A stretch of DNA of 64,000 nucleotides from Wuchereria bancrofti. Lineage: Eukaryota; Nematoda; Chromadorea; Rhabditida; Onchocercidae. Numbering within the stretch: position 1 is the first letter of the stretch; each line of letters opens with the position of its first letter. Location of the stretch: positions 13,576,863-13,640,862 of the forward strand of contig SSBO01000012.1 in the NCBI GenBank assembly GCA_005281725.1, given 5' to 3'. A model generated the notes under the pieces. The model was not told the DNA's origin. It did not search any database and saw only the letters and a program-made list of their open reading frames with translations. Position numbers and translations under genes: made by a program. Of this stretch, positions 2,279 to 60,649 are shown piece by piece.

Positions 2279-3650
2279 ATACTAGAAATAAAAAATAAAT
2301 TATCAAAAAAATAAGTAATAGAATAAAAACGGAAAAAATGAATCAAAAAGATACAGCGTAAAATGATGTATATAATTATTATGAGACAATAGTAATTGTT
2401 TGCTTTGTAAAACAATAAGACTTAATAAAAATCAAAGATGTTATAATACGATTAATTCATCAAAAATATTATAATAAGAAGAAAAGGCTATCAACTATAG
2501 AAGTAATAATTACACCCATATTATTAAGCTATGTCTAAGGTCACTAAAACGAAACAAAACAAAAAAAGCAAAAAAAAAACAAAAATGATGGAAAAAAATT
2601 TGTTTTTCATTTCTTCTCACTTATTTCAGTATAATTTTTCTTTTTTCTTACCATTATTTCATAAATGATTATTTCAAATGAAAAATTTCAACCAAATTCT
2701 AAAATTATCGCAAAAAAAAAGTTCTCCATTTTAATATTTAAAAACAAAACAAAAAAAAAAAATTTATAATTCTATACGTTGCAACTTATCATATTAAGCT
2801 AATATAGCAATTATAGAATGATAATGAATTCAACGATATTTGTAAATACATATTATTAACTACACACGTACGTACACGTTTACGTCTAAATGTATTGCCT
2901 AACTCAAACATTACGTCATAGAGCAAAGAAGAAATATGCAGAAGAAAGAATTTGAAATGATTTGTAATGAAGTAGATTCTATCAATATTTAAAACATTAT
3001 AAAAATAAATGAAAAGCTAAATAATATTATATTTTAATAGGAATTTAAAATTAAATTTATAAAATTAATTTTTTTTAAATATTCTAAATTATTATTGTTT
3101 CTTTATCGTTTACTTTTCTATTATAGAAAGAAAAGAAAGAAAGAAACACCCTTATATTTCTCATATTATTCATATGATTTTTTAAACAATTTCTTTAAAA
3201 AGAAAAAAGAATAAATTTAAATTCCGAAAATATCATTTGAAATTTTTCCTTCCTTTAACTTAAACATTTCGGAAATTCAATTATAAAATCAAATTTCACA
3301 ATGACATTTCTTTTTTTCTTCTTTTGTTTGTTTGTATGAGTTAGAAAAGAAAAATTATGACACAATAATACAATATAATGATTGATATGACTGAAAAAAA
3401 GAAAAGAAAAATAAAACAGAAAATGTCATCAGTAAAGAAAAAAATCAAAAAAATGAATAACAGAAAATTTGTCAACATTGATTGTGATTTGTTTACAATT
3501 TTTCTTTTTTTTTTGTTTACAATGTGATATAACTAAGAAAAAAAAACTAAAATTAATCCTAATTCACAATGATACAATGATATTTAAGACAAAAAGTAAA
3601 AAACATTTCAGAAATTAGCACTAAAATATATTATAATAATTAGATTCATA
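2279..3650. repeat. AT-rich non-coding block with a diverged direct copy at about 9650-10980
   Basis: There is no coding potential. The block aligns in the same orientation with about 9650-10980 at roughly nine identical bases in ten over the stretches compared by eye, for example around the shared words TCATAGAGCAAAGAAGAAATA and TTTGTCAACATTGATT. The similarity stops at AGATTCATAT: this copy continues towards the LTR-bearing Pao element, the other into ordinary AT-rich DNA. The divergence looks too high for simple allelic copies, so this may be an old segmental duplication or dispersed repeat. Confidence 0.7.
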
Positions 3651-3928
3651 TGACTAAATGCATCTGTCGCCACAATGGCGAAGCTATGATGTAATGAACA
3701 AAGAGTATTGTTTTAAGTGATTTTAATCTACTTTGTAACCTTAACATCCAAAAAATCCCTCCCAATTTTCTTCCTTACAAAGCCATTTATAGTATCTTGT
3801 AATGGTATGGCTCGGTTGGAAAGTGTCTAGCTTGCTTACATCTTTAAATGTTTTATAATTAAGTTATATTCGTGTGTTATGTATCAACTCGTTATTGTAA
3901 TGTTGTATAATTTTTAATGTTAATCTGT

Positions 3929-3950
3929 GGTTTAATTACCCAAGTTTGAG
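3929..3950 (+). promoter_or_regulatory. Exact SL1 spliced-leader sequence inside the Pao LTR
   Basis: The 22 bases start GGTTTAATTACCC and end AAGTTTGAG, identical to the nematode SL1 trans-spliced leader exon. They are followed by GT, as at the donor site of an SL RNA. No Sm-binding site of the AATTTTTGG type follows, so it does not look like a complete SL RNA gene. It lies in sense orientation relative to gag, 9 bases before AATAAA, in the place expected for the R region. Confidence 0.9.
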
Positions 3951-3958
3951 GTTTGAAT

Positions 3959-3964
3959 AATAAA
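3959..3964 (+). promoter_or_regulatory. LTR polyadenylation signal AATAAA
   Basis: AATAAA lies just downstream of SL1 in the LTR. This is consistent with an R region that starts at or near SL1 and ends a few tens of bases later. Confidence 0.55.
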
Positions 3965-4139
3965 GTATTTCACGAAGACTCCCACAGTACACGTACACAG
4001 AACGGAACCAGTACAGATTCGAGAATCTACCAGTATCGAAGGCAAAGAAGTCAACGATCTGAACTGTCAAGGAAGGAAACCTACTTTGTTTCGCAAGGAA
4101 GCAGAGCAGTAAGAAAGGGTTATTAAATTTGTTTTTACA

Positions 4140-4157
4140 TGGGGGCTGAGCAAAGAA
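4140..4157 (+). promoter_or_regulatory. Candidate primer-binding site of Pao element 1
   Basis: The sequence begins TGGGGGCTGAGC directly after the TACA end of the LTR. A primer-binding site normally starts TGG, pairing with the CCA end of a tRNA. The tRNA was not identified, so this rests on position and TGG only. Confidence 0.4.
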
Positions 4158-4355: not shown

Positions 4356-6892
4356 ATGAGTGCTGGCATTAGAAGAACAGCTCAAGGAACGGCGGCAAAG
4401 CTGCAGGAATTACTTGTGGCCGTCCCTCCCTGGATGGAACCACCAGAGAACAGTACCGCGCTGGAAACACGACAACTTTATGAAACCCAGCTCAAAAAAG
4501 TACAGGACCTAAAGCGCAGAATTGAAGACAGCATACAGCGCTTACAACAAAAAGAACAACGATGAGAAGATATTATGAACATTATGGAAAAAGAACAACT
4601 AAAGAAGGAAGAACAACTATATAAAGAGGCCCAAAAAGAAGGTTTTCTACACACACTAGAAATCGGACGAAATGCACTGTTTACGCTAATTTCAAACGTA
4701 CAACGACTGGAACAAGCTATACAAACCATTGATAAAGAAATAGACAGCACAGAACCTCCAACTCCAGTTTCGACCGCACCACTTGTCAGTCAAATGCAAC
4801 TTCCAAAAATGGAAATGAGGACTTTTGATGGCACCCTTACTGCATGGCCAGTATTCTGGGATTGGTTCCGAATCGCCGTACATGATCAGCCAATCCCTCC
4901 GCTAAACAAACTAACGTACCTTCGGGGCTGTCTTCTGGGAGCAGCAGCCTCAGTCATAGAACCCTACGCGCTACGGACCCAGAATTATGAAGTAGTTCTC
5001 GCAGCACTAAAAAAGCGATATGAACGGCCGGCAGCAATCAAACAAGCTCTATACAGAGAACTAGAAAGATTGCCTAGAGCGAAAGAAGGTAATCTACGAA
5101 CCACTATAGAAGCTATTGATCGAATAATAGAATTACTCGGATTCCAAGGGGAAGATGTTAATTCAACTCTTATAATCTATCTCATAAAACAAAAGCTTCC
5201 AAAGTCCATATTGGAGAAAATAGAATACGAGAAATCTGAATGGACAGTACCCACCTTAAGAGATCGCCTAGCAACCTTTGTTATTGCTGAAGAAAATGTG
5301 GCAAGTATATTAGGCTATGCCTCAAAAGAATCATACAGTCCGCATTGGGACACAATGGAGATGTCAAAACTGACATCAGCACTACCAACGATCAACACGA
5401 AACATAATCTCCCGGCAAGAAAAAATGAAGTAACCTTAACGCACCCACCTAGAACGAACAGAAGGTGTTCGTTCTGCACAAAACCACATCGTACTCATGA
5501 ATGCCGAAAATTTTCTACACCTGATGAACGCTCGAAACGAGTGGTAGAACTAAAATTATGTTTTTTGTGCTTGAAAGAAGGACATAGATCAAAAGATTGC
5601 AAAGCTTCACAGTGCTTCAAATGCGGGCGAAGACACCATCCGGCATTATGCTCACCTGCAAACAACACGGACAATAAAGTTACGAAGAACACACCAGTAA
5701 ATCAAACAACAATCCACCTTGCAACGACAGAAACTAATGCAACATTCGCAAATATCAGAACATCCCTTACGCCATTGTGGTGTATAGAAGGATTTGCCAG
5801 TAATCCACGAAATCACCATAATAGTAAAAAAGTAATGGTACTCCTGGATACAGGCAGCGAAAGATCCTATATCACAAAAAATCTCGCACAGACATTAAAA
5901 ATGACTGACAGTCAGCACGAGACACTGTCAGTTGGACTTTTCGCAGCAACAAAACCAATCACAATGGAAACCAGACGACTTCAGGTCGTCCTTGAAAGCC
6001 AGGATCGCCAAACCAAAGAAGTAGTAACCGTCAACACAGTTCCTAGTATCTTACACCGCCCGCTACAATACGCCAAAATAAAAATGAATATAAGACAACG
6101 ACATGATATCCAAACAGCGTTACAGGAACCGGAATTACTTTTGGGGGCAGATGTCATTTCAAGAATTCTCCTACCCCAAACAACTCTTCGCCAAGGCAAT
6201 TTTATTATAATTGCGACAACACTAGGTCAAATAGTAACGCGAGCAGAACCGCCACAATCAATCGACAGCAACGTCTGCACGGTAACAGTGGACCCCGTCG
6301 AAACATTTTGGAACCTTGAACTGATGGGAATCAAGGAAGACGAAGTCAAAGAAGAAGATATCATAGCTCAGGAACATTTTGACCGAAATGTCCACACTAA
6401 TGAAGAAGGAAGAATAGTGGTAAGCTTTCCCTGGAGACCAAAGCAGGATAATTTGCGCCCACTATCAGACAATTTTGCACTCTCGTCCGCAAGACTTTAC
6501 TCCCAATGGAACAAATTACAATCAAAACCCGAATTAATTTCGCGGTACCATCAGACCATTCAAAACCATATCGCGAATGGAATAATAGAACCCACAACGC
6601 GCCAACACAACAACGAATATTTCCTCCCGCACCAGCCGATTTGGAATGAGAACAGTATTTCAACCAAATTACGTGTTGTCTTTGATGCAAGTGCAAAGCT
6701 ACAAGGACAATCAAGCTTAAATGAATATATTTTACGGGGCCCAGTAATACTCCCACAGTTATTAGGTGTAGTAATGCGATGGAGATTACCACCAATTGCA
6801 ATTATCGCCGACATAGAAAAAGCTTTCCATCAATTAACTTTGCACATAGATGACAGGAAATTTACAAAATTCCTTTGGCTTAAGGACATATC
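4356..6892 (+). pseudogene. BEL/Pao element 1 gag-pol, one in-frame TGA, truncated in RT
   Basis: The start ATG (MSAGIRRTAQG) lies about 215 bases after the LTR. The first 69 residues are followed by an in-frame TGA at 4563-4565, and the same frame then stays open to the gap at 6893. The region around the stop is rich in Glu, Lys and Gln and is probably coiled coil. Counting from this ATG, the Pao gag domain covers about residues 150-315, three Cys/His knuckles about 370-432, the aspartic protease near 497 (LLDTGSERSYI, intact DTG), and the RT start near 771-845 (FDASAK, ADIEKAFHQ). The catalytic YxDD, RNase H and integrase lie beyond the gap. The reading frame is more GC-rich than the surrounding DNA. 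Apart from the TGA the frame is clean, so this is a young copy or one with suppression or a sequencing error at that codon. Confidence 0.85.
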
Positions 6893-6893
6893 N

Positions 6894-6937
6894 CACGTAC
6901 ACAGAACGGAACCAGTACAGATTCGAGAATCTACCAG
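6894..6937 (+). repeat. 44-base LTR scrap between two single-n gaps
   Basis: Identical to 3990-4033 inside the 5' LTR and bounded by n at 6893 and 6938. It is probably the remnant of the unassembled 3' LTR. Confidence 0.75.
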
Positions 6938-6938
6938 N

Positions 6939-9640
6939 GTTTTTATAATAATATTAATTTCATCATTAGCATAATTAGTAATTACTATCTATGGAAGATA
7001 GCTTTTTATGAACAATAAAAAAAAAATGCATACATGAATATGTTGCATCATCAAAAGGTAACGAAGTGATTACAATGGTAATTTATCGGTACCTTTTATG
7101 ATGTTATAAGGTGACAAAGGAGTCATTTGCATCCGACAGTGAGTTGACACTACCGTTCGGCATAAAGTAATCCATCGTATTATCCATCGATCATCCATCA
7201 TTTTCGAAATCTTTCTTTCTTCATTTCGACTATCTTAAATTTACTTTATGGATAATAATACCAATACTAATCAGTCATAATAATACCACCTACTGTTTTT
7301 CTTTTTTTCTTTTTCTCTCTCTCTTTCTATTCCTCAATAATACCTATCTTATGATAATAAAAATTTCATTTGCATTTAATGAACGTTTATTTTTTTATCG
7401 AAATTAAATTATATGTTTTTTTATTAAGTGAATTTTTAATATAATAATATTAATTTCATCATTAGCATAATTAGTAATTACTATATGAAGATAGCTTTTT
7501 ATGAAACAATAAAAATCATTTAATATGTTAATATTATTTATGATAATAGAATTTTTTTATTTTACATATAAAAAATTGGAATTAATTTTTTAGAATTATC
7601 ATATATAAATGAAACGAATTAATAATATGCTTTACTAATACTATCATAAGTAAATCATTCATTCAAACTTTAACAAACAGAAGAATAATTTATTTACTTT
7701 TCAGATTTTAACTTTATATCCTTTCTTTTATCCAGTGCTTTTAATCTTGCATCGCTTTTTATTTTTCCTTGGCCTACATATAATTACATTTCTTTTCTTT
7801 TTTTTTTTTGATGTTTTCTTAATCAAATTTCAAAGATTATAGAATGCACTTATTGAAAATACAAGTTTTTTTCTTGCCTTTAGCAGTCTTTATTTAACAA
7901 AATATTTGTGAAATCTCAAATTTGTTACAATAAGTTATTTGTTCAATTAAAATTCAGTTTATTTAATTAAATTATTTCAGAAATAAAAGCATTTTAAGTG
8001 TGCTTTTGTTTTTCATTATGTAAAAATTAGTCGAGCAGTAAATGTTGCGATATTAATGATAATTTAATTAAATATTTGCATGAATTTTTAATATATTTTA
8101 TTATACTTTTAGGAGAAGTAATAGTTGTGTAATAATTTTTTTGCATTTCTTTACTATTTTGTTGATAAAATTTATTAAAATGGCAAATTTATAAAAATTA
8201 GTGAAAACAATTGAATTTATTTTATTTCTTACTTTTATCATTCTTTTTTTTCACTTTTTAACTTCTTCAATTTATTTTATATTTATTGTTTTCATCCACC
8301 GTTTTATATCAGAGGGATATAATTTCTCGTTTGCAAATCTAACAGCGATTATATCCATCGCCACTAATTATCTTATCATCTGCTACTTCATTAGTAAGAG
8401 AAATATATTATCTGATTTATTTATCGGATTATATTCAGTTCATTACAATCAAACTATATTCATTGTAAAATAAGCTTACATATTCGTATATATCATTCAT
8501 CAAAATAACATTAATTGAAATTTCACTCTATAATGAATTAATTATTGATAATACCTGATAATGATAGTGCAGTAATGCTATACTTTATGAATGACATCGA
8601 AAAATTCTCTCATTCTTTTCTCAAATCGATCCCATCATTTTTTGATGTATTTTTTTAGCACTGAATAAGTTAAGTTAAGATTTGCCAATTTGATAATTAT
8701 TATCTTTCAAATTAAGCCATCAGTCATCATTATCGGAACATTATGATTCAGTAGTTTCAACATATTCAAATTATAATAATTAGTATATTTATTCTGAACA
8801 AGTGACATTTAATGAATTGGTGACATTTTCATGTTAATGAATCACAATCAGCGAAATATTATTCTTCGTAATATTTTTAAATTGTCATCATTTTAAAGCA
8901 TACAAAATTTCCCAAATAATATTACCAGTCAGACAGATTAACGGAATACAAATTATTTTTCTTCCTATAAATTTAAACTTCTAAATTAATAATTGAAATT
9001 TGCTTCCTTTTTTTAAAAAATAATAGCAAGAAAAGTTTAAAGAATTGAAACAATAAAAAAGGAAAAATAATAACTAAAAAGTTTTTCAAATTTAAAAATT
9101 TGCACTTTTCTCTCCTTTCCTATCCATTATTAATTGAAAAACTACAAAAACAATTTTAAAAAGAAAAAAAACGAAAAAAGAAAATCTTTCAGCAATGATA
9201 TTATTTTGTTAACTCAATGTTGTAATTATTCGAAAAGTTGAAAGATTACCAAAACTTCATTTCTTCTTTTCCACTTCTTTTTTTGATCCAATTAATAATT
9301 CATTAAAAATTGTTCTATAAGACAATAATAATAAAATGAATTTTCATTTATAAAATGTAATTTTCAAGTGTTTTACTAAATTTAATTTAAAGTAAATATT
9401 TATCTGTTATACATATATATATATATATGTATTTTTGCAATGATTTAAAATTGTATTTTTAATTAATTTAATCATATAGGCATAAAAAATATGCCTGTTT
9501 CTTATATCTACAGATTATGTTTTGCAGTACAATGAAAATTTAACTATTAATAGAGTGATAATTGTTACCAACATTTTTTAATATATATTATTGCGGAAAA
9601 TATCAGAAAAAGTAAATAATAAATAGAAATAAAAAATAAA
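6939..9640. other. AT-rich non-coding region
   Basis: No gene is seen. A short block at 6945-7016 recurs with small differences at 7441-7510, around TTAATTTCATCATTAGCATA, close to the gap at 6938; this may be two allelic contig ends. The open frames here are hydrophobic, T-rich and without splice or homology support. Confidence 0.6.
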
Positions 9641-34965: not shown

Positions 34966-35496
34966 TCAGTTTGTCATACTGTCTGCTTTTGTCAGACTAT
35001 CCAATTTCAGCGTTTGCATGGCTACTATCATGGTCGGATCTGTTAGAGGTGGCTGTGTTGCTCGTGTTGTTTTAAACTGTAGGAGCTGTTGACGAACCTG
35101 GAACTTGTCAATCGATAAAGCCTGATAAGCAGCAGGATTTATAAATGCTATTGGATACAAAGTTGTCAAAACTAGTTACAGAATTACAGAAGGTTACATT
35201 TCCATTCTCATCGTACCATTTATCACAGAACACATTTGAAAGAGAATGTCTCAAGAAACACTTCATATTTTGAAAAAAAAAAGAACCATTTAAAATTCTT
35301 TTTTTAAAATCCTTTTTCTAAAGAAAAAAAAATGAGAATCAACCAGTTATTGAAATGTTTTATCGTTCCTCTTGATACTTAAACTTAATAAACGAAAGAA
35401 AAAAAAAACCTTCATGTTGATAAAGCCAAGAACATTTTTGCCTTCACCTATTAGTGGAATGTACACCAATGTTCCATTATCTATTTTGGTCGGAAT
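34966..35496 (-). pseudogene. Duplicate of the last two NADAR-gene exons (assembly copy)
   Basis: 35496-35410 and 35121-34966 equal exons 7 and 8 of the NADAR gene at 38337-37807, shifted by 2841. They are cut off from the rest of the gene by n at 35708. Treat as the redundant end of an overlapping contig. Confidence 0.75.
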
Positions 35497-35672
35497 CTGC
35501 AAAAGCGCGAAGATGATTTCTTCTACTTTTGCTAACTTGAAGTTGTACGGATCAACCCTTCACCTATTAGTGGAATGTACACCAATGTTCCATTATCTAT
35601 TTTGGTCGGAATCTGCAAAAGCGCGAAGATGATTTCTTCTACTTTTGCTAACTTGAAGTTGTACGGATCAAC
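35441..35672. repeat. 116-bp tandem duplication over a NADAR exon, left copy
   Basis: Two head-to-tail units of 116 bases (CCTTCACCTATTAGTGG...GTACGGATCAA) starting at 35441 and 35557. The same pair recurs at 38282-38513. Confidence 0.85.
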
Positions 35673-35904
35673 TTTTTATTCTTCGACGCCTCATCCGTTC
35701 AATACTTNTATATATATATATAATCGGTAACTGAATTAATTATTGAAGAATTAATTATTGATTAATATTTATATCGAATTTTGTAAGATATTGCATTAAA
35801 TAATTTCAACTGATGAAAATCTAATTACTTAAAGAAATGATGTAGCCTTTACTCTAGAGTATTGAGAAACTTGGATCTCTTCATCTAGTTTTATTATGTT
35901 TCAG

Positions 35905-36172
35905 AAATTTCGATGCACACGGAAAACTTGAAATTCAGTGAGAGCAAGGCTTATTTTGGAATTGATAAGCGAAAACCACTAGATGAGGTGATAGTAGTAG
36001 CTTCACAGTCCTATCTGGAAGTTTGCAATCCTGCAGCTCATAAACGAAAAGTAACAGCGTCATTTTTGAACAGTTTTGCGGTAATATGTTTCTACTTCTG
36101 GTATTCCAGGTAAATGATTTACCCGATCATATTTACCGAGCTGAAGAGGGTGCTTTTACGCTTGACATTTGA
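35905..36172 (+). CDS. Unidentified gene, last exon(s), right copy
   Basis: Same as 33064-33331: exon 35905-36080, a 29-base GT-AG segment 36081-36109, then 36110-36172 with TGA. In this copy the sequence upstream ends at the n at 35708, so the rest of the gene is not available here either. Confidence 0.5.
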
Positions 36173-37806
36173 ATTTCATTATTTCATATTGTTAGTGACT
36201 ACCACCGAAAATCTGTGCTAGATTCGGAAAAGATATTTTCAAGACTATACAGTCATGTAGCTCCTGTAATTTAGAATATCAGAAAATAAATCGTGACATG
36301 ACCCTGCTGGTAACCACCGTTGGTTTTAATGCAGTATAATGTAGTTTAAATTCAATATTTCATTTGACTATCTGGTTCACGTGACCTCTGAAACTATTCC
36401 ATTCCATTCATCTACTAAGACAGCCAAATTTCGTTGATGGTCAGAAGATTTAGGACAGTTCCGCTAGGCTAAGGCCTTAATTGGACCCAAAGTTCAAACC
36501 CCGGCTACTAATCGCAATTTCGGCATCTGATGCCACGTTTTTACGGTGTCATGCATCAGACGTTAAAGCGTGGAATCATCTCCTGACTTTTGATTCTTCC
36601 GTCTCAGGTTTATTCCGTAGTAGCAGTAGCAATTTATGAGAATCTCGAGAACTCGAAAAATATTTTTGACTATGCGGTATTTTGAATTTTTAAGTATACA
36701 CTTTATGCATTTAGCCTCGCTTATTTCAAAACACAATTTGTTGCTTGCATTTTTCAGGATCACAATGACTTTGTCTGCCTATCATTTAGCGGTTTGACGA
36801 AATACCTTGTAACTTCAAATTTAACGAAAAAAAAAAGCGCTCGGCACCAACTTTTAACTTTTTAACAAAAATCGGCAACATTCCCTCTTACAGCATTTCA
36901 AACTAAAGACATTGCAACAGAGTAAAACGGCGGCTAAGGAACAGCGATTCTTTCTGACGGCATTTTTTTATAGTCCTAAAAATTGTCGTTGGAAATGTTT
37001 CGAATTTGGAATAGAATGATATAAAATTTGAAAGCTGAACAAAAAACGAACGCGAAGAGGACAATGTTAGCACAGGACTTAGATGTAAAGAGCAAAGTGA
37101 GCTAACTGTGAGGAATTCCCATAAAAAAGAATTATATAGAAATCAAAGCATAAAGATCGAAGATACCCAAGATTTTCGGTCGGTGAAGTCATTCACAACA
37201 GAAAAATTGCATATTTTGCCGTAATTTTAATATAAAAAGCCCATCAAAAAAGGTGAGCGAAATATTGGAAAACTGAAAATCTACATACGTCACTGTGAAG
37301 AAATTTCCATGTTGATTATTCACCCCGAATAACAGGAACAGCAGAGAAAGAGAACAAAACCTGAGAGATTTTCCGGAAAATCTTTTGCTAATTATAAAAA
37401 AACATAAAAGCACGCAGTAGTAAAAGCAGAAAATCTTTTGCTAAGCACTGTAGCAACTTGGACGTATTGCCTAGTCAGTTGGTCAAAGCAGTATGCAAAG
37501 TTTTCTGATGCAAGCAGCAAAAATATATGAGGGAAGGGGGGAGAGAGTAGAAAGAAAGAGGGAGAGGGAAAAAACGAGAAGCCATAATAAGCGAGGATGC
37601 CAACACTCACGTGTTTCAAAAGGTGTCAAATCTAGAAATATAAATGAAAACTACTCCTTGAAAATCATTGCAAATTTGTATGCCTTTCAAAACCAAATTT
37701 GGAACAACAAAGTTAAAACATTATTATTTTATGGTTTCAGTAATTTTCTGGAATGGCTTTCATACGACGATAACTTCGAGATCATGTTAGCTTTCTGATG
37801 TGTACC

Positions 37807-40772
37807 TCAGTTTGTCATACTGTCTGCTTTTGTCAGACTATCCAATTTCAGCGTTTGCATGGCTACTATCATGGTCGGATCTGTTAGAGGTGGCTGTGTT
37901 GCTCGTGTTGTTTTAAACTGTAGGAGCTGTTGACGAACCTGGAACTTGTCAATCGATAAAGCCTGATAAGCAGCAGGATTTATAAATGCTATTGGATACA
38001 AAGTTGTCAAAACTAGTTACAGAATTACAGAAGGTTACATTTCCATTCTCATCGTACCATTTATCACAGAACACATTTGAAAGAGAATGTCTCAAGAAAC
38101 ACTTCATATTTTGAAAAAAAAAAGAACCATTTAAAATTCTTTTTTTAAAATCCTTTTTCTAAAGAAAAAAAAATGAGAATCAACCAGTTATTGAAATGTT
38201 TTATCGTTCCTCTTGATACTTAAACTTAATAAACGAAAGAAAAAAAAAACCTTCATGTTGATAAAGCCAAGAACATTTTTGCCTTCACCTATTAGTGGAA
38301 TGTACACCAATGTTCCATTATCTATTTTGGTCGGAATCTGCAAAAGCGCGAAGATGATTTCTTCTACTTTTGCTAACTTGAAGTTGTACGGATCAACCCT
38401 TCACCTATTAGTGGAATGTACACCAATGTTCCATTATCTATTTTGGTCGGAATCTGCAAAAGCGCGAAGATGATTTCTTCTACTTTTGCTAACTTGAAGT
38501 TGTACGGATCAACTTTTTATTCTTCGACGCCTCATCCGTTCAATACTTACCGTTGTTGTGGATAGAACAGAGAGATTCCCAATGTTCTGAAACCTACCAC
38601 ACAACGTATTGCGAATAAACACAAAGAAAAGTAGTAATCGGTAATGAAGTACACAAAGAAAAGTAGTAATCAGTAATGAAGTAATAAATCCAGGGACCGA
38701 ATATTTAATAAATACAGAAAAATGACTTGCTGAATAGATGATGAAGCACGTAGCTTGTGAGCATCACGCAAAGATTGGCAAATACGGATAATAGGGAAGC
38801 ATTAAATTATAAGAAGCCGATAAACATCATCCTGATAAATGAAAATACCGACTTAAACACTAAACACAAGTATTCACCTAAGTATAGACTCGTAAATAAC
38901 ACGAAAAAAATAAAAATACCTTAATTATTTGACCATTATGACTTTTTGCCCATTCTAATATCTTCTCCTTGTCGCAACCCGTAGCAAAGATATTATCCCG
39001 TTCGTACGTATGTGCGAGCAATGCATTACCTGTTTCCAAAAGTTTCGCGCGAAGTTGAGGATTTTGTACAAATTTGTGTACTATTGCATGATGTAGTAGC
39101 GCTGGACCCTGAGTACGCTTCCATTCTTCCACCTGAAAAATCCCTTCTAGAAAAGAAGAATCTGGATTGAATTGTTTACGAATGAAACGAAATGAAAATT
39201 TTGAGAAAGACTTTTGAATTTTCAAATATTCACTAGCTAATCTGAAGTTACGATTCTGAGATTTTATTAAAAATAAAAGCAAAACTTATTAAAACTCCAG
39301 ATTTAAATATTAGCCAGTCTTTTATACACGCAAAATTTAATATAAACAAAAAATCAGTGCGAAAGTAGCAATATTAATTATACCTTCTCTATTGAAATGT
39401 TAGCTGAACGCAACAATTTTTTTGCGTGAGCTTTAGTCAAACCAGCATTAGATATATTACGAAGCTGTGCAGCAAAACGTGCACCACCTAATGTATACAA
39501 TTTACAAGCTTGATAATAATGTTCCACGCTCGGATACTCATGTCCATCCACAGTTAGCGTAACCTGTTTTGTGGGAGTTAAAATTAAAAGTGACATTTTT
39601 CGTTACGAATATAAAAATAACAAAAAAAAAAACCATTCCTTCGAGTATTCTGATTAGTGCTAGAACAGAAACTCAGGACATAGAGTATGGATAAAGCAAA
39701 ACTGATGCTTAATATCGTGGTCGATAAAACCCCTATTCAACTTAATATAATTGGATGAAAGGATCGGGAGAATGGTTAAATTCATGAATTATACTAGAAA
39801 AGCAGTTAGCGTATTAAAAGAAAAAAGCTGTATAAAACCGACGGGAAATAAATTTGAGAGGAAATGTTGACGACCGCTAAAACAAATGACTTCATCGGCA
39901 TCTACTTTGTAATCATCGGTATCCACATCGATTGGAACATCGTCTACCTGAAATTGTAAAATTATGAGATTAGAAATATTCGTGGAGTTGAAGTATACTC
40001 ACTTATCGACTTAGAGAAATCATTTGGTTAATCGGAATCAACTGGTCACCTGAGATACTGATACTGCTTCTGCGCTTTTTCAACAATAATAATAAACAGA
40101 ATATATCCTAAGCAAAACTTATTCCAGCTTATTTCCATATTGAGAAGAGGTTTTTACTATATTCTTAAATAAAAAACACATTACAGGAGGTGGAGTAAGC
40201 GGTTTTGGTGGTAAACGCGGTTCTATTTCCTTCCTTCCACTTTCAAAACTAGTATATTGTCGCCCATCTGCTTTATCCGTGGTAAAATCGATATTCTTTC
40301 CACGATAAACTTCCTAAAACAATCGGTTATAGTAACACATATAAAGATTAACAAGTTTTTCGTCGCTGATCCTTAGAAATACATACTCTTGAAAAAAAAA
40401 CCGTACTCTTAGTAGAATTCAATACAACTAGGAAATATTTGACAAAAAGTACACAGTTCCAACCCAAATAACAAAATTTTAGCAGCTTACTTACATAGTA
40501 GTAAGCTCTGGATGACCACGGTTGCGTAAGTGGTGCCAGTCCACATGTATCGCCTTGTCTATGACGTCGTGCAGCCTTTTCTCGTGCAATTTCCATCGCT
40601 TTAATGGATGCAGGCGTTGACATCTCCACACAATCCTCTAAAACATCAGTTATGAGAAAAACAAGCTCAAAAATTTGTAACCTTGTATAGACATAACAAA
40701 CATGAAATTCAAATGGACTTTATAAGGCATAATATTGAAGTATAATATTGAATGACCTTTAGGCCAGTCCAT
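37807..40772 (-). CDS. NADAR-domain protein (YbiA/COG3236-like N-glycosidase), eight exons
   Basis: Exons: 40772-40757, 40637-40495, 40313-40185, 39947-39843, 39563-39384, 39132-38920, 38337-38251 and 37962-37807 (TGA). Phases agree and the sum is 1029 nt, 342 residues. The start chosen is MDWPKE (40772), the only ATG in phase before exon 2; a longer first exon is possible. The NADAR domain spans about residues 117-291. Key motifs are ICFSGRQHFLSNLFP, then YPSVEHYYQACKL (the conserved Glu at about 145), GNALLAHTYERDNIFATG, and GEGKNVLGFINMK. The 116-residue leader is unassigned; the 51-residue tail is QVRQQLLQF-rich. NADAR enzymes hydrolyse N-glycosidic bonds; reported substrates are riboflavin-pathway intermediates and ADP-ribosylated guanine. 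The true substrate here is unknown. The exon 4 donor (CCC/GTCGGT) is weak but needed to keep domain continuity. A possible 36-nt in-phase exon at about 38566-38531 was left out. Confidence 0.82.
38282..38513. repeat. 116-bp tandem duplication including NADAR exon 7 and its acceptor
   Basis: Units start at 38282 and 38398. Each carries the acceptor TTTTGCAG and the coding stretch ending LIGEG. Only the unit nearer 38282 runs on into GKNVLGFINMK and a donor. The other reads into LIRTTSS and a stop. Because both overlapping contigs contain the pair, the duplication is probably real. Confidence 0.85.
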
Positions 40773-49266: not shown

Positions 49267-49763
49267 CTATGGAATGTTATTAAGGTAAAAGACGAAAAAG
49301 TTTTTTCTTTTTTTTCCGCCCCGTTTACGATGCTTTCAAAGTGTACGTTGTCGGCAAATAGGCCGAAAGTATCAATACAGTAACTAAGAACCAAGAGAGG
49401 GCGCTAACACAGGAGTCAAACTGACAAGCAACCAGATAATAAAAATGCAATTTAACGATGTGGATATTTGACCTCAACAAAGAGCCATTTTAAGCGGTAT
49501 AACAGGGGGCAATTTCTCTTTATGGATGTTACAACGGATCGACGAATTGGGGGATAGTGGTCTTAGGACAGCTACAGGACGATGCGTGCACAGGATTTTA
49601 ACTGATAAACGGATAACCCTTTGTTACAAACGATGTAGCTGGAAAGCGAGGAGAAGCAGCCAAGAATCTCTTTGTTCATAAATTAACCTCGCTTTACACA
49701 CATTACATTGTATAAAATACATGACAATTAAATGCATGTAATAGGCTATTGTAACAAGATATC
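49267..49763. other. Unassigned stretch with raised GC
   Basis: About 49310-49640 is distinctly less AT-rich than its surroundings (for example GAGAGGGCGCTAACACAGG and GGACAGCTACAGGACGATGCG) but shows no long frame or recognised motif. It may be a decayed mobile element or a missing part of the glypican-like gene's neighbourhood. Confidence 0.4.
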
Positions 49764-50692
49764 TATGCTTAAACAAATCTCCTTTCTTCTCAATTTCACA
49801 TTTTTTGATCTTCAGTCTCAATTAACTCCAACACCAGCTCTTAATTGCAGTTAATCATTTTTTACAATTGTACATTTATAGTGTGGTTGCGGTTTCAGCT
49901 CTCTGGTAACTATATATGTACAGAAGTTTATTTTTCAACTATCTTGTACAAAAGGATGTATAAAAGTTTATTTTTCCACTATTTTTCAACTATTACAAAT
50001 TTATTTTCAACCATTCTTTTAAAAAAAGAAAAAAAACAGATAAGAAAAAATATTTTTCTTTACAAATTCTTTCTCTTTCACTTTTTCTTTCTCTCTCCCT
50101 TTTTTTCTCTCCTTTTTCTTATTCTCATAAACTCTTTTCTCGTTTTTACTCGCTTTAATAATCCAAATTCTTTCTTTAAAGAAATACAAAATAAAACTAA
50201 GAAAAACCCTTGCAAACTATAAAAGTATGACTCAATAAGTTTGATTTAATATATTACATATATCTAAACAAATATGTATTCTTAGATGTCTGCTTAAAAA
50301 TAACTAGAATTATTCAGAATTCCAATTCGAAGCTTTTTGGTGAAGTAATGATAAAATTATATTATTTGGGAACATATAAATAGATAAAACATCCGAAATA
50401 TCTTTGATGAATTCCGTTTTCTAATGCTACAAAATTACTAAATGAGAAAATTTTATTCCCTTTATTTATTCTACACTATCATAATTCAATAACAGAATTT
50501 TTTCAAAATTTCAAAATGTTTGAATTTCAGAAAATATCTTCATTTCGATAAAAAGTTTTCTAAAAAACATATCGAAAAAACCTTTTAAAAAGAAAAGGAG
50601 AAATAAGAGGAAATATTTGGTAGATTTAAATATTCATAATATTAATAATCATTAATTCCTTTATTTATTAGAAACAGACACTAGACATATTT
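49764..50692. repeat. 929-bp block, form without the SL1-bearing LTR
   Basis: Matches 50694-51883 except that the latter has 261 extra bases (50840-51100). The blocks meet at n 50693. Probably the two allelic or overlapping versions of one locus. The long T-rich open frames inside are not credible genes. Confidence 0.8.
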
Positions 50693-50839
50693 NTATGCTT
50701 AAACAAATCTCCTTTCTTCTCAATTTCACATTTTTTGATCTTCAGTCTCAATTAACTCCAACACCAGCTCTTAATTGCAGTTAATCATTTTTTACAATTG
50801 TACATTTATAGTGTGGTTGCGGTTTCAGCTCTCTGGTAA

Positions 50840-51087
50840 TGTTTAGCGTTTTATAACTGTGTAGCATCCGTGCGATATGTATAATGCGCTATTATGATGT
50901 TGATTTGTTTTATGCTAAATAAAGGTTTAATTACCCAAGTTTGAGGTGCGGAAAACAATCAGTTCGTCCAGTTCTACTGAGAGTACAACGAGAACGACGA
51001 GAATAGACGTAAGAATAAATTAAAGTAGGAAACAATTAAATAAACAGATTTTCGTCCCTTAAAGAAAAAGGAGGGAATATCATAACA
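50840..51087 (+). repeat. Solo LTR-like insertion carrying SL1
   Basis: Begins TGTTTAGCG and ends ATCATAACA (TGTT/AACA inverted ends). It contains AATAAA at 50918-50923 and exact SL1 at 50924-50945. The next 13 bases (51088-51100, ACCTTATTTTTTC) are also absent from the form without the insert, and no clear target duplication is visible, so the right edge is uncertain. Outside SL1 and a GTTTTATAA word it does not resemble the LTR at 3849-4139. No internal retroelement genes are attached. Confidence 0.65.
50924..50945 (+). promoter_or_regulatory. Exact SL1 spliced-leader sequence directly after AATAAA
   Basis: The 22 bases GGTTTAATTACCC...AAGTTTGAG are followed by GT. They start immediately after AATAAA (50918-50923), so cleavage and polyadenylation 10-30 bases downstream would fall at the end of SL1, making R roughly equal to SL1. 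No Sm site of an SL RNA gene is visible. Confidence 0.9.
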
Positions 51088-51454
51088 ACCTTATTTTTTC
51101 CTATATATGTACAGAAGTTTATTTTTCAACTATCTTGTACAAAAGGATGTATAAAAGTTTATTTTTCCACTATTTTTCAACTATTACAAATTTATTTTCA
51201 ACCATTCTTTTAAAAAAAGAAAAAAAACAGATAAGAAAAAATATTTTTCTTTACAAATTCTTTCTCTTTCACTTTTTCTTTCTCTCTCCCTTTTTTTCTC
51301 TCCTTTTTCTTATTCTCATAAACTCTTTTCTCGTTTTTACTCGCTTTAATAATCCAAATTCTTTCTTTAAAGAAATACAAAATAAAACTAAGAAAAACCC
51401 TTGCAAACTATAAAAGTATGACTCAATAAGTTTGATTTAATATATTACATATAT

Positions 51455-52500
51455 CTAAACAAATATGTATTCTTAGATGTCTGCTTAAAAATAACTAGAA
51501 TTATTCAGAATTCCAATTCGAAGCTTTTTGGTGAAGTAATGATAAAATTATATTATTTGGGAACATATAAATAGATAAAACATCCGAAATATCTTTGATG
51601 AATTCCGTTTTCTAATGCTACAAAATTACTAAATGAGAAAATTTTATTCCCTTTATTTATTCTACACTATCATAATTCAATAACAGAATTTTTTCAAAAT
51701 TTCAAAATGTTTGAATTTCAGAAAATATCTTCATTTCGATAAAAAGTTTTCTAAAAAACATATCGAAAAAACCTTTTAAAAAGAAAAGGAGAAATAAGAG
51801 GAAATATTTGGTAGATTTAAATATTCATAATATTAATAATCATTAATTCCTTTATTTATTAGAAACAGACACTAGACATATTTGGAATAAGAATAATTAT
51901 ATAATTAATGCAAATTATATTTAATATAATTATATAATTAATTCAAACACTGTCAATTATTTTTATATTATTTTAAATTGTGCAATTTATAATCATACCG
52001 TGTTATCAAGATAATAAATTATATCATACTGCATAGTTTGTTGTATCTAATCACATCACTCTGATGGCAATAAATAAAATTTGCATTGAAGAAAATAAGT
52101 TATTAGTTTATCTAAACTATTCTTTCTTAAATTGCAATTAAACTATTATTTTTATATTCAAATTATACAATTTATATTCACACCGTATGATATGATTGAT
52201 CTATTATACCAATCACATATACTACGATATGTTACATCACACTACACAGTTTACGTTACCTAACATTATCGCTCTGATGACAATAAATAAAGCTTGAATT
52301 GAAGAAAATAAATTATTAGTTTATCCCAGCTATTCTTTCTCAAATCTCGATTAAACTGTTTTAAGAGATCATTACCTTTTTTGATATGATATCACATTTA
52401 GTTAATTCGCTCATTAATATTTATTCATTAAGCCATAATTAGTAATTGTTAACAACACTTCTACCCAATGGTGACAGTCAATATCTTTTTTTCTTTAAAT
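51455..52500. repeat. Inverted repeat, left arm (1046 bp)
   Basis: The reverse complement of 56841-57886, with no difference noticed. It directly abuts the truncated RT end of the minus-strand Pao element. Inside are two diverged tandem units (about 51985-52145 and 52167-52360), both with CTCTGATG.CAATAAATAAA and GAAGAAAATAA.TTATTAGTTTATC. Confidence 0.8.
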
Positions 52501-55444: not shown

Positions 55445-55629
55445 TGTTATGAAAGCTTTACGGACACCAACGGCTCGTGGAGAAAGCGTTTATTTTTGAA
55501 TAACCACGGCTTAATATCGCAAGGTTTATAAATGCTTAAAATGAGAGTGGTTTACATTAAACTTTAAACAGCTGCTCATTTACATAAAGAAAGCTGTAAA
55601 CATCTAGTTACAGTATAAGCATTATAACA
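55445..55629 (-). repeat. Short 5' LTR of Pao element 2
   Basis: Bounded by TGTTAT...ATAACA inverted ends, 185 bp, upstream of the minus-strand gag. It contains an AATAAA on the element's sense strand. No SL1 is present. The matching 3' LTR is absent. Confidence 0.7.
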
Positions 55630-56840
55630 ATGGGAGATTAGCATGTGTGAATCTCTTTAGATTTGAATAAAGATAACAAAAACGCATTGGAATTCGATGG
55701 GAATAAATCTAAGAATTATAAATGAGATAATTAATGAGTCATAGATGGAGGAAATTATTTCTATTTTTTCTTAAGGATTTCTTCCAACTTTCGCGTCTTT
55801 CGCGATATCATATGATAACATTTTATAATGATTATAGTTGGATATTCAATGATGACGAAATGAACAAATACGACTAGTTAACGTGTCAAAAACAAATTTA
55901 AATTGCATGTAATATTTGTATTTTATCATTGGTAAGATAAGTATGGATTAAAATATTGTTAAAATAGATATAGAAAGGGGGAGAGAAAAGAAGAAAAAAA
56001 TCAATGGAATAGTTTACAATTTTTTCACACATTTTCCTTCTTTTTAAATTATTAAAATGAATTTGAATAATAGATTTTTATTGGCAATTTATTTCAACCA
56101 GTTTTAATTTCTAGTTAAAAAAAATAGCAATATTTAAATTTATTTGTTGTTTAATTTAATCGTATAACTTTCTTTTTCGTTTTTTTTTCTTTCTTTCTTT
56201 AAATTAAACAATAAAAATTTTGTTCCTTCGCTTATTTCAATCGAAAACGTGATGTTTTTGGAAAGGATAATTTACTTTTATTAGCTTTATTAGCGGTTTC
56301 TTTCGTTTTTTTCCTCTGAACACTTTAATTGTTACCAATTACTTGAAAAAAGTGAAAAAACTCAAAAATACTTCTACTTGTAGGAAAATATTAAACGAAA
56401 AAAGCGGTAGTGCTATTGGCTTGTACTTAAAATAGTCATTTTGATCAATTTAAACAGTCAAAACTTCTTTCTTTTGCCTGAATTTAAAGAAACATTAAGT
56501 ATTGATAATTCATAGCAAATTTTTTTAAAAAATGTCAAAATTTAAATCTTTTAAGAAAAAATTAATTATGAGATGAAAAATGATTCTAAATGTCCTATTT
56601 TCCGGACTATTGTATTTCTTTTAGATTTTATTCGATATTTTTTTAAAGTTTTACTATAAATTATTAATTCATTTTTTCTTAAATTCAAGCAAAAAGAAAT
56701 TTTAGATTGTTTAAACTGGTTATTTAAACTAATTTACAAAAATATACAAATGAACAGAAGAATTTATATCAAAACTATGATCATTAAAAAGTCGAAATCG
56801 CTATGATCATGAAAAAGGATGCTATAAAAAAAATCAATTA
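55630..56840. other. AT-rich non-coding flank between the LTR and inverted-repeat arm
   Basis: No gene is seen. It recurs as its reverse complement at 59259-60469. Confidence 0.6.
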
Positions 56841-57886
56841 ATTTAAAGAAAAAAAGATATTGACTGTCACCATTGGGTAGAAGTGTTGTTAACAATTACT
56901 AATTATGGCTTAATGAATAAATATTAATGAGCGAATTAACTAAATGTGATATCATATCAAAAAAGGTAATGATCTCTTAAAACAGTTTAATCGAGATTTG
57001 AGAAAGAATAGCTGGGATAAACTAATAATTTATTTTCTTCAATTCAAGCTTTATTTATTGTCATCAGAGCGATAATGTTAGGTAACGTAAACTGTGTAGT
57101 GTGATGTAACATATCGTAGTATATGTGATTGGTATAATAGATCAATCATATCATACGGTGTGAATATAAATTGTATAATTTGAATATAAAAATAATAGTT
57201 TAATTGCAATTTAAGAAAGAATAGTTTAGATAAACTAATAACTTATTTTCTTCAATGCAAATTTTATTTATTGCCATCAGAGTGATGTGATTAGATACAA
57301 CAAACTATGCAGTATGATATAATTTATTATCTTGATAACACGGTATGATTATAAATTGCACAATTTAAAATAATATAAAAATAATTGACAGTGTTTGAAT
57401 TAATTATATAATTATATTAAATATAATTTGCATTAATTATATAATTATTCTTATTCCAAATATGTCTAGTGTCTGTTTCTAATAAATAAAGGAATTAATG
57501 ATTATTAATATTATGAATATTTAAATCTACCAAATATTTCCTCTTATTTCTCCTTTTCTTTTTAAAAGGTTTTTTCGATATGTTTTTTAGAAAACTTTTT
57601 ATCGAAATGAAGATATTTTCTGAAATTCAAACATTTTGAAATTTTGAAAAAATTCTGTTATTGAATTATGATAGTGTAGAATAAATAAAGGGAATAAAAT
57701 TTTCTCATTTAGTAATTTTGTAGCATTAGAAAACGGAATTCATCAAAGATATTTCGGATGTTTTATCTATTTATATGTTCCCAAATAATATAATTTTATC
57801 ATTACTTCACCAAAAAGCTTCGAATTGGAATTCTGAATAATTCTAGTTATTTTTAAGCAGACATCTAAGAATACATATTTGTTTAG
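56841..57886. repeat. Inverted repeat, right arm (1046 bp)
   Basis: The reverse complement of 51455-52500; ends at n 57887. Confidence 0.8.
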
Positions 57887-57887
57887 N

Positions 57888-58873
57888 ATTTTGATCAATT
57901 TAAACAGTCAAAACTTCTTTCTTTTGCCTGAATTTAAAGAAACATTAAGTATTGATAATTCATAGCAAATTTTTTTAAAAAATGTCAAAATTTAAATCTT
58001 TTAAGAAAAAATTAATTATGAGATGAAAAATGATTCTAAATGTCCTATTTTCCGGACTATTGTATTTCTTTTAGATTTTATTCGATATTTTTTTAAAGTT
58101 TTACTATAAATTATTAATTCATTTTTTCTTAAATTCAAGCAAAAAGAAATTTTAGATTGTTTAAACTGGTTATTTAAACTAATTTACAAAAATATACAAA
58201 TGAACAGAAGAATTTATATCAAAACTATGATCATTAAAAAGTCGAAATCGCTATGATCATGAAAAAGGATGCTATAAAAAAAATCAATTAATTTAAAGAA
58301 AAAAAGATATTGACTGTCACCATTGGGTAGAAGTGTTGTTAACAATTACTAATTATGGCTTAATGAATAAATATTAATGAGCGAATTAACTAAATGTGAT
58401 ATCATATCAAAAAAGGTAATGATCTCTTAAAACAGTTTAATCGAGATTTGAGAAAGAATAGCTGGGATAAACTAATAATTTATTTTCTTCAATTCAAGCT
58501 TTATTTATTGTCATCAGAGCGATAATGTTAGGTAACGTAAACTGTGTAGTGTGATGTAACATATCGTAGTATATGTGATTGGTATAATAGATCAATCATA
58601 TCATACGGTGTGAATATAAATTGTATAATTTGAATATAAAAATAATAGTTTAATTGCAATTTAAGAAAGAATAGTTTAGATAAACTAATAACTTATTTTC
58701 TTCAATGCAAATTTTATTTATTGCCATCAGAGTGATGTGATTAGATACAACAAACTATGCAGTATGATATAATTTATTATCTTGATAACACGGTATGATT
58801 ATAAATTGCACAATTTAAAATAATATAAAAATAATTGACAGTGTTTGAATTAATTATATAATTATATTAAATA
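57888..58873. repeat. Direct copy of 56438-57423
   Basis: The two appear identical (offset 1450); bounded by n at 57887 and 58874. Unmerged contig overlap. Confidence 0.85.
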
Positions 58874-58874
58874 N

Positions 58875-58976
58875 TTTCTTTAAATTCAGGCAAAAGAAAG
58901 AAGTTTTGACTGTTTAAATTGATCAAAATGACTATTTTAAGTACAAGCCAATAGCACTACCGCTTTTTTCGTTTAA
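58875..58976. repeat. 102-base scrap equal to 59607-59708
   Basis: Bounded by n on both sides; inverted relative to about 56391-56492. Confidence 0.8.
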
Positions 58977-58977
58977 N

Positions 58978-60649
58978 TACTACGATATGTTACATCACAC
59001 TACACAGTTTACGTTACCTAACATTATCGCTCTGATGACAATAAATAAAGCTTGAATTGAAGAAAATAAATTATTAGTTTATCCCAGCTATTCTTTCTCA
59101 AATCTCGATTAAACTGTTTTAAGAGATCATTACCTTTTTTGATATGATATCACATTTAGTTAATTCGCTCATTAATATTTATTCATTAAGCCATAATTAG
59201 TAATTGTTAACAACACTTCTACCCAATGGTGACAGTCAATATCTTTTTTTCTTTAAATTAATTGATTTTTTTTATAGCATCCTTTTTCATGATCATAGCG
59301 ATTTCGACTTTTTAATGATCATAGTTTTGATATAAATTCTTCTGTTCATTTGTATATTTTTGTAAATTAGTTTAAATAACCAGTTTAAACAATCTAAAAT
59401 TTCTTTTTGCTTGAATTTAAGAAAAAATGAATTAATAATTTATAGTAAAACTTTAAAAAAATATCGAATAAAATCTAAAAGAAATACAATAGTCCGGAAA
59501 ATAGGACATTTAGAATCATTTTTCATCTCATAATTAATTTTTTCTTAAAAGATTTAAATTTTGACATTTTTTAAAAAAATTTGCTATGAATTATCAATAC
59601 TTAATGTTTCTTTAAATTCAGGCAAAAGAAAGAAGTTTTGACTGTTTAAATTGATCAAAATGACTATTTTAAGTACAAGCCAATAGCACTACCGCTTTTT
59701 TCGTTTAATATTTTCCTACAAGTAGAAGTATTTTTGAGTTTTTTCACTTTTTTCAAGTAATTGGTAACAATTAAAGTGTTCAGAGGAAAAAAACGAAAGA
59801 AACCGCTAATAAAGCTAATAAAAGTAAATTATCCTTTCCAAAAACATCACGTTTTCGATTGAAATAAGCGAAGGAACAAAATTTTTATTGTTTAATTTAA
59901 AGAAAGAAAGAAAAAAAAACGAAAAAGAAAGTTATACGATTAAATTAAACAACAAATAAATTTAAATATTGCTATTTTTTTTAACTAGAAATTAAAACTG
60001 GTTGAAATAAATTGCCAATAAAAATCTATTATTCAAATTCATTTTAATAATTTAAAAAGAAGGAAAATGTGTGAAAAAATTGTAAACTATTCCATTGATT
60101 TTTTTCTTCTTTTCTCTCCCCCTTTCTATATCTATTTTAACAATATTTTAATCCATACTTATCTTACCAATGATAAAATACAAATATTACATGCAATTTA
60201 AATTTGTTTTTGACACGTTAACTAGTCGTATTTGTTCATTTCGTCATCATTGAATATCCAACTATAATCATTATAAAATGTTATCATATGATATCGCGAA
60301 AGACGCGAAAGTTGGAAGAAATCCTTAAGAAAAAATAGAAATAATTTCCTCCATCTATGACTCATTAATTATCTCATTTATAATTCTTAGATTTATTCCC
60401 ATCGAATTCCAATGCGTTTTTGTTATCTTTATTCAAATCTAAAGAGATTCACACATGCTAATCTCCCATTGTTATAATGCTTATACTGTAACTAGATGTT
60501 TACAGCTTTCTTTATGTAAATGAGCAGCTGTTTAAAGTTTAATGTAAACCACTCTCATTTTAAGCATTTATAAACCTTGCGATATTAAGCCGTGGTTATT
60601 CAAAAATAAACGCTTTCTCCACGAGCCGTTGGTGTCCGTAAAGCTTTCA
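58978..60649. repeat. Reverse-complement copy of 55450-57121
   Basis: 58978-59258 equals 52220-52500 in direct orientation; 59259-60649 is the reverse complement of 55450-56840, reaching into the LTR. Taken as one unit it is the same contig placed in the opposite orientation. Non-coding. Confidence 0.8.

Follow-up and report, generated by a model that had tools for sequence, protein, structure and literature searches.

The 64,000-nucleotide stretch of the Wuchereria bancrofti genome analysed here (the window; contig C12 of assembly GCA_005281725.1, 86.5 Mb in 108 contigs) raises the question of why the long terminal repeat (LTR) of a retrotransposon carries the complete 22-nucleotide (nt) exon of the spliced leader (SL) SL1, and what this exon does there. 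On the usual understanding, an LTR element itself encodes its R, the terminal repeat used in first strand transfer. In this genome SL1 stands inside LTRs with target duplications, U3 and U5 regions of different families are exchanged at SL1, and the signal AATAAA adjoins it. The best explanation of the whole, to which we assign a probability of roughly 0.57, is that SL1 forms the 5' edge of R in several BEL/Pao LTR families, that first strand transfer takes place on it, and that trans-splicing supplies it.

Exact SL1 (GGTTTAATTACCCAAGTTTGAG) occurs twice in the window, at 50924-50945 in the LTR under study (the focal LTR) and at 3929-3950 in a second LTR. No further site was found with up to three mismatches allowed, a threshold at which none of 100 shuffles had any; these shuffles and the genome-wide reversed control, which had none, rule out a chance origin of the two copies. 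They are not SL RNA genes either, as no SL RNA body lies behind SL1 and no Rfam match was obtained at an E-value of 1. As a preliminary description of the window had proposed, AATAAA directly precedes SL1 in the focal LTR (50918-50923, with SL1 from 50924). Its further claim that the two LTRs share almost nothing except SL1, the following GT and the TATA-like word GTTTTATAA does not hold: positions 3850-3952 and 50848-50947 align with 78 matches, and the U3 ends (-120 to -1, without SL1) score higher than 500 of 500 shuffles. The U5s are unrelated, the same score being reached by 150 of 500 shuffles. Related U3s joined to unrelated U5s fit the exchange pattern described below.

We searched the whole assembly for SL1, yielding a total of 243 exact sites (118 forward, 125 reverse; none in the reversed control) and 389 sites with at most three mismatches (one in the control). 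The flanks of 192 of the 243 exact sites were then examined in genomic stretches labelled L001, L002 and so on, a set that was chosen by exact SL1 and that underlies the comparisons below unless said otherwise. Four sites (L033-L036) are SL RNA genes, as the body behind SL1 shows, and the flanks of the other 188 are of LTR type. The bases behind SL1, classified for 242 of the 243 exact sites, are GTG at 83, GTT at 94, GTA or GTC at 25 (at least four of which are SL RNA genes), A, C or T at 28, and G followed by A, C or G at 12; GT is common (202/242) and not universal. Contigs C13-C108, which with C5 included total no more than about 8.1 of the 86.5 Mb, contain 89 of the 242 listed exact sites, and these SL1-rich contigs are perhaps Y-linked or heterochromatic pieces. 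A search for SL1 in virus and prokaryote sequence collections gave no stretches, as expected for such collections.

The LTRs begin with TGTC and finish with ACA in the families with visible ends (A, B, D, the gtgtctac family and the short-U5 family; E by eye), and measured lengths range from 393 to 835 nt, with a shortest U5 of 11 nt (SL1 followed by GTTTCACGACA). Perfect 5-bp target duplications flank 19 of the 32 copies in which both LTR ends were set by pattern, as against a mean of 0.74 with shuffled right flanks. Where GGGAG adjoins the left end or TGGGG the right end, the copies resemble the 3' and 5' LTRs of full elements and not solo LTRs. Candidate primer-site letters (TGGTGCCCGAGG or TGGGGGCTGAGC) stand behind some LTR ends, and in L145 and L153 a primer-site-like TGGTGCCCGAGGTGAGG lies 10 nt beyond a short-U5 LTR. 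The primer-site region behind the short-U5 SL1 LTR of L153 (274-375) is present three times, in 42-nt tandem steps.

A stretch with two SL1 LTRs in the same direction, L070, has attat on both outer flanks, and its interior, scanned as three pieces, gave protease, reverse transcriptase (RT), Pao peptidase, and integrase zinc-binding and core matches between the two LTRs. The scores were as follows: Pao peptidase (PF05380; piece 2879-4078), E-value 2.8e-48; RVT_1, E-value 1.8e-6 (28.3 bits against a curated cut-off of 29.6, in a match that hits the piece border); Integrase_H2C2, located after RVT_1, E-value 5e-8 (above its cut-off); and rve, last in order, E-value 4e-5 (24.3 bits against a cut-off of 32.6). 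Judged by these domains, the order of RT before integrase, the LTR ends and the target duplications, the SL1-LTR elements belong to BEL/Pao.

To compare LTRs, we set SL1 base 1 as coordinate 0. Between LTRs of unlike U5 types whose U3s are 84-98% alike over about 350-390 nt, homology is lost at +21 to +24: L081 and L044 are 97.7% identical over 354 nt with homology to +23, and homology to L003 likewise reaches +23 in L014 (89%), L012 (87.5%) and L039 (91%). Where U5s are alike and U3s unlike, homology begins at 0, that is, at SL1 base 1: L003, L004, L063, L074 and L081 match L007 at 32 of 32 positions from 0 to 31, and pairs sharing a U5 extend from 0 to 61 (L050 and L039) or to 145 (L015 and a site in L038). 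In a cross-table of U3 and U5 groups, four U5 types occur with a single U3 group of 82 sites, and the U5 group gtagct/gtaact is combined with several U3 groups; single-linkage clustering of U3s at 0.70 identity fused the A, B, D and E types, and the number of clusters is little informative. Alignment of SL1-bearing LTRs, a step suggested in the preliminary description and carried out here within this genome, placed the U3/U5 exchange point at SL1 from both sides. In retroviral logic, the acceptor RNA contributes the U3 of a new LTR and the donor RNA its R-U5. The donated block then begins, on its left, where the donor RNA has its 5' end, which we infer to be SL1 base 1.

The focal LTR, a member of family A, is by its sequence itself a composite with a joint at SL1. 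The outer U3 of this family is like the C2 family (L014 at -564 to -421 and -433 to -364 against L015, about 82%); from -361 it is like the gtgtctac family, also an SL1 LTR, starting within one base of the terminal TGT of the latter; and behind SL1 it has pieces in common with C2-type LTRs. The simplest history suggested by this structure is that the 3' LTR of a C2-like element was interrupted by another SL1 LTR. The foreign LTR would have ended the RNA at its own SL1, where C2 strong-stop DNA would still have annealed, R being the same. A composite of this kind would be expected with SL1 in R, because a 3' LTR with a foreign SL1 LTR inside could still serve transfer.

AATAAA starts at -7 or -6 in 98 of the 188 LTR-type sites, including the focal copy, and at +26 to +36 in 55, and so stands beside SL1 in 153. 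Within -12 to +36 it was found in 153 of 187 sites, whereas neither of two control stretches upstream had it at any of 185 sites; in the downstream stretch from +60 to +108 it was found in 39 of 188. The hexamer is near-constant at +30/+31 across unlike U5s (gtttga, gtaact, ggcaaaataaa), with GATAAA in gtagct and atttct. For both classes the position of AATAAA would put the RNA 3' end either within SL1 or a few tens of bases past its end. The preliminary description had equated R with SL1, which fits the exchange point, the left edge at SL1 base 1 and AATAAA. In the class with AATAAA directly before SL1, R can be little more than SL1; the other class, with AATAAA about 30 nt after the SL1 start, needs a longer R, which would be SL1 plus some 20-30 nt. 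That R is located at SL1 we consider highly probable from the combined sequence evidence. The word TTTTATAA stands at -75 in the focal LTR, at -73 to -77 in at least 66 of 97 A-type sites, and at -71 to -82 in 40 of 44 B-type sites. With ordinary spacing, the word at this position would start the RNA of A and B upstream of SL1, whereas the exchanged block starts at SL1, two points that removal of the upstream part by trans-splicing would reconcile.

In the cycle that we propose, genomic RNA would begin with SL1, and the cleavage that makes its 3' end would fall inside or shortly after the second SL1, that of the 3' LTR. Minus-strand strong-stop DNA ending in anti-SL1 would anneal at the 3' SL1, accomplishing first strand transfer. 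Because every SL1-bearing element would have the same R, the strong-stop DNA of one family could prime on the RNA of another, and U3 and U5 would become modules exchangeable between families. Most likely, SL1 trans-splicing by the host would provide the 5' SL1, at least recurrently, and each new copy would in this way regain the exact 22-nt exon. The DNA points to an RNA 5' end at SL1 base 1, a 3' end in or just behind SL1 and strand transfer on SL1; with less weight it points to trans-splicing as the source in each cycle. For trans-splicing as the present source of SL1, the odds appear slightly better than even, and dependence of the elements on it is plausible. A host source is favoured because R need match only itself, yet the exact exon is constant between families. 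That the Pao group needs the host spliced leader to replicate, with an R that is host-templated, self-repairing and common to all partners in a trade of modules, is a tentative proposal that falls somewhat short of even odds.

Some LTRs contain SL1 twice, at a spacing of either 32 nt (nine exact sites, preceded by aacggg) or about 100 nt (L020, L027, L030 and L112). An exact second SL1 is present from base 1 onwards and follows aacggg or gtaagg (gtaaag in L112), as if RT had run off a capped RNA beginning with SL1; L038 has a one-mismatch SL1 copy behind atggg. Addition of C residues followed by re-annealing is a behaviour of other reverse transcriptases, and an RT that ran off such an RNA, added C residues and re-annealed at the G-run would give a double SL1. 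At 12 places the last 20 nt of SL1 are followed by TTTGAG (3) or ATTGAG (9), with two more places differing by one mismatch, and this repeat begins directly behind the one AG inside SL1. It was demoted from a proof of splicing at that AG to a hint, one of the L070 LTRs being without it. Two insertions at different loci apparently put a gtaact-type LTR into the SL1 of another LTR: near 1122 of L050 (minus strand), GGTTTAATTACCCAAG is joined to TGTTGC on the left, and near 2870 of L038, ACA is joined to CCAAGTTTGAG on the right. The minus strand of L082 has, near 283, an SL1 prefix fused to the primer-site region in reverse complement, with GGTAAT common to both at the junction; a minus-strand product that had primed itself would look like this.

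The window also contains part of a Pao LTR without SL1 (family F). Used as a query against the assembly, it gave 36 matches, of which 29 cover at least 155 of 181 letters, two are partial and five comprise the U5 part only; these five, in L056, L057 and contig C43, lie behind SL1 and attgag. On this sequence comparison, SL1 is not in every Pao family, and the U5 of SL1-free family F was once joined to SL1 and a foreign U3. L056 and L057 (1501 and 4384) have head-to-head LTR/gag arrangements with 842-bp inverted arms.

Variation of SL1 was assessed in copies found by their U3, 30 for family A (26 of 36 exact-SL1 matches, L032 and three mutated copies) and 31 for family B (28 of 38 exact-SL1 matches and three mutated copies). 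Singleton variants per column amounted to 0.09 in SL1, 0.11 in U3 and 0.65 in the first 20 nt of U5 (mixed U5 types) for A, and to 0.18, 0.31 and 0.05 respectively for B. Exact SL1 lay within 80 nt of the U3-query match in 36 of 41 cases for A and 38 of 41 for B, scoring being confined to the best 40 candidates per family, with old copies left out. Purifying selection on SL1 in young families was rejected, as no constraint after insertion is visible. Neutral mutation of SL1 among family members, which the preliminary description named as an argument against R being SL1, is uninformative within young families, where SL1 decays about as U3 does; between families SL1 is constant, at 22 of 22 positions, while U3 and U5 are beyond alignment or about 75-80% alike.

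Several observations weigh against SL1 being a trans-spliced R. The decay just described is one, together with the first 20 nt of U5 in family B varying less than SL1, and the invariance of SL1 comes in part from choosing the 192 sites by exact SL1. L117 and L118 (347 of 348 letters the same) share one SL1 variant, and an old SL1 LTR subfamily (L043 at 504, minus strand, and L001 at 1838) has an altered last SL1 base (TTTGAA) in common; shared variants of this kind would fit inheritance over renewal, unless the copies were duplicated. Trans-splicing does not predict the frequent GT behind SL1, nor that within the large U3 cluster every U5 type compared has T in second place behind SL1. AATAAA is at neither place in 35 of the 188 LTR-type sites, TTTTATAA is absent from C-type (0/8) and E-type (0/9) sites, family F has its LTR without SL1, and SL1 with the TTTGAG repeat occurs in just one of the two L070 LTRs. 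By the nematode consensus, the end of SL1 (after TTTGAG) and the internal site after CCCAAG are weak acceptors, and no separate strong splice acceptor was seen by eye. In C. elegans, the full-length RNA of the retrotransposon Cer1 is described as not SL1 trans-spliced, in the part of the account that treats its transcripts (PMC3315495).

An alternative is an encoded start, in which a captured SL1 acts as promoter or initiator, RNA polymerase II starts at SL1 base 1, and strand transfer proceeds in the same way with no trans-splicing. The 22-nt SL of Ascaris is said, in work by Hannon et al. from 1990, to serve SL RNA genes as an internal promoter element, and a start of this kind would account for the R edge at SL1 base 1, the constant 22-mer, the frequent GT (present in SL RNA genes too) and the related U3 ends of A and B. 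However, the upstream flanks of the four SL RNA gene copies, as compared by eye and perhaps not all active, are unlike any U3, the constant block stops at the exon end in families without GT, and the distance of TTTTATAA from SL1 in A and B, about 75 nt, is too great for a start at SL1; we consider an encoded start unlikely, although by no means far-fetched.

SL1 could instead be a relic, trans-spliced once onto a Pao RNA, integrated and carried since then without present function, with the chimeras arising by ordinary recombination. Past addition and integration is how Foster et al. (2020; PMC7181701) interpret the Brugia malayi pattern in the passages that concern it, and the neutral-like decay of SL1 within families and the existence of shared variants agree with it; a relic is nonetheless improbable given SL1 at 22/22 between families despite the divergence of U3 and U5, the exchange points at SL1 from both sides, and the placement of AATAAA around it. 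We give even less credit to leader mimicry, by which SL1 and the GT behind it would act as a splice donor and a cis-spliced gag mRNA would carry SL1 like host mRNAs. The GT at 202 of 242 sites, SL RNA genes included, speaks for such a donor, whereas several types are without it, including the multi-copy attaaacg and attgag, and by eye no strong acceptor precedes gag in the window element. A trans-spliced SL1 at the edge of R is the explanation that we favour.

Features of the window are collected in Table 1. The focal LTR is cut on its left side by an assembly gap (N at 50693) with loss of the 5' part, and its 3' end reads cctata, which is cctaca in sister copies. It is probably a solo LTR, since tacgt on the left (49344-49348) and tatgt on the right (51106-51110) have four of five letters the same. 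The upstream copy of this LTR type is without the SL1/U5 part and passes straight into the downstream flank; it appears to be an allelic or duplicated version. Many perfect direct and inverted repeats, some beside single N letters, were found at 49759-52500, 55450-60649 and 35441-38513, which suggests haplotype or scaffolding duplications and makes distances within the window unreliable. The Pao frame behind the second LTR has a partial copy at 2-2314 with matches to DUF1759 (gag) and DUF1758 (protease) within 2-2311, and a protein search with the gag/protease frame returned two Wuchereria bancrofti fragments (92% identity over 67% of the query, and 98% over 39%).

Table 1. Positions of LTR parts and element sequences in the 64,000-nt window
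Feature	Positions	Strand	Remark
Second SL1 LTR, family B, TGTCGCC...TTTTTACA, 475 nt	3665..4139	+	ends as in sister copies
GTTTTATAA in LTR B	3850..3858	+	
SL1 22-mer, exact, in LTR B	3929..3950	+	
AATAAA in LTR B	3959..3964	+	+30 from SL1 start
Putative primer-binding-site position, TGGGGGCTGAGC	4140..4151	+	immediately 3' of LTR B
Pao gag/protease/RT-start reading frame	4566..6974	+	downstream of LTR B
Second copy of focal LTR type, 5' part	49349..49909	+	left flank tacgt
Focal LTR, family A, partial	50694..51105	+	U3 50694-50923, R/U5 from 50924
GTTTTATAA, TATA-like word, focal LTR	50848..50856	+	
AATAAA, likely poly(A) signal, focal LTR	50918..50923	+	directly adjoins SL1
SL1 22-mer, exact, focal LTR	50924..50945	+	proposed R or its 5' edge
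U5, gtgcgg type, focal LTR	50946..51105	+	reaches LTR end
Family F Pao LTR, 3' part, without SL1	55445..55620	-	AATAAA 55489-55494, U5 shared from 55482

If our explanation is correct, trans-splicing that delivers R in the form of a host exon would meet the needs of first strand transfer in a new way. It would also account for the many SL1 copies that filarial genomes have apart from SL RNA genes, and would explain simply why LTR modules are shuffled. Searches for SL1 transcripts would then also pick up element RNAs that contain SL1 without trans-splicing, a trap for surveys.

SL sequences were reportedly found in many Onchocerca loci by Zeng et al. in 1990, and the element Tas was reportedly treated by Felder et al. 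in 1994. Neither SL1 as R nor module exchange at SL1 was found in a search of the titles and abstracts of open-licence papers. The occurrence of SL1 beside Pao elements is already known from Brugia malayi: Foster et al. (2020; PMC7181701) report 316 SL1-bearing places, 120 of them outside SL RNA arrays, and 60 of these 120 within 1 kb of PAO elements, sometimes flanking the element, on one strand, and infer that expressed PAO RNAs had gained leaders, which were then integrated. The element class and the 22-mer are the same as here; in its passages on these elements, the B. malayi account does not place SL1 inside the LTR or call it R, and describes neither U3/U5 exchange nor the poly(A) signal at SL1. 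SL RNA genes make up 196 of the 316 sites there, as against 4 of the 192 flanked sites here. For Cer1, a Ty3/gypsy element, a spliced 2.4-kb RNA is found with and without SL1, a likeness in that the RNA of an LTR retrotransposon can gain SL1 by trans-splicing; unlike here, only the 2.4-kb RNA is leadered, and the part of the account dealing with Cer1 RNAs mentions no SL1 encoded in the LTR (PMC3315495). The Pr77 retrotransposons of trypanosomatids are likewise retroelements in a trans-splicing host, and what they have at the 5' end is, by the accounts drawn on here, a promoter sequence in common and not a spliced leader. Hybrid LTRs of Ty1 and Ty2 have their junction in R and are explained by transfer between two RNAs; there the element itself provides R and the partners are closely related, whereas here R would be a host exon and the families are unlike.
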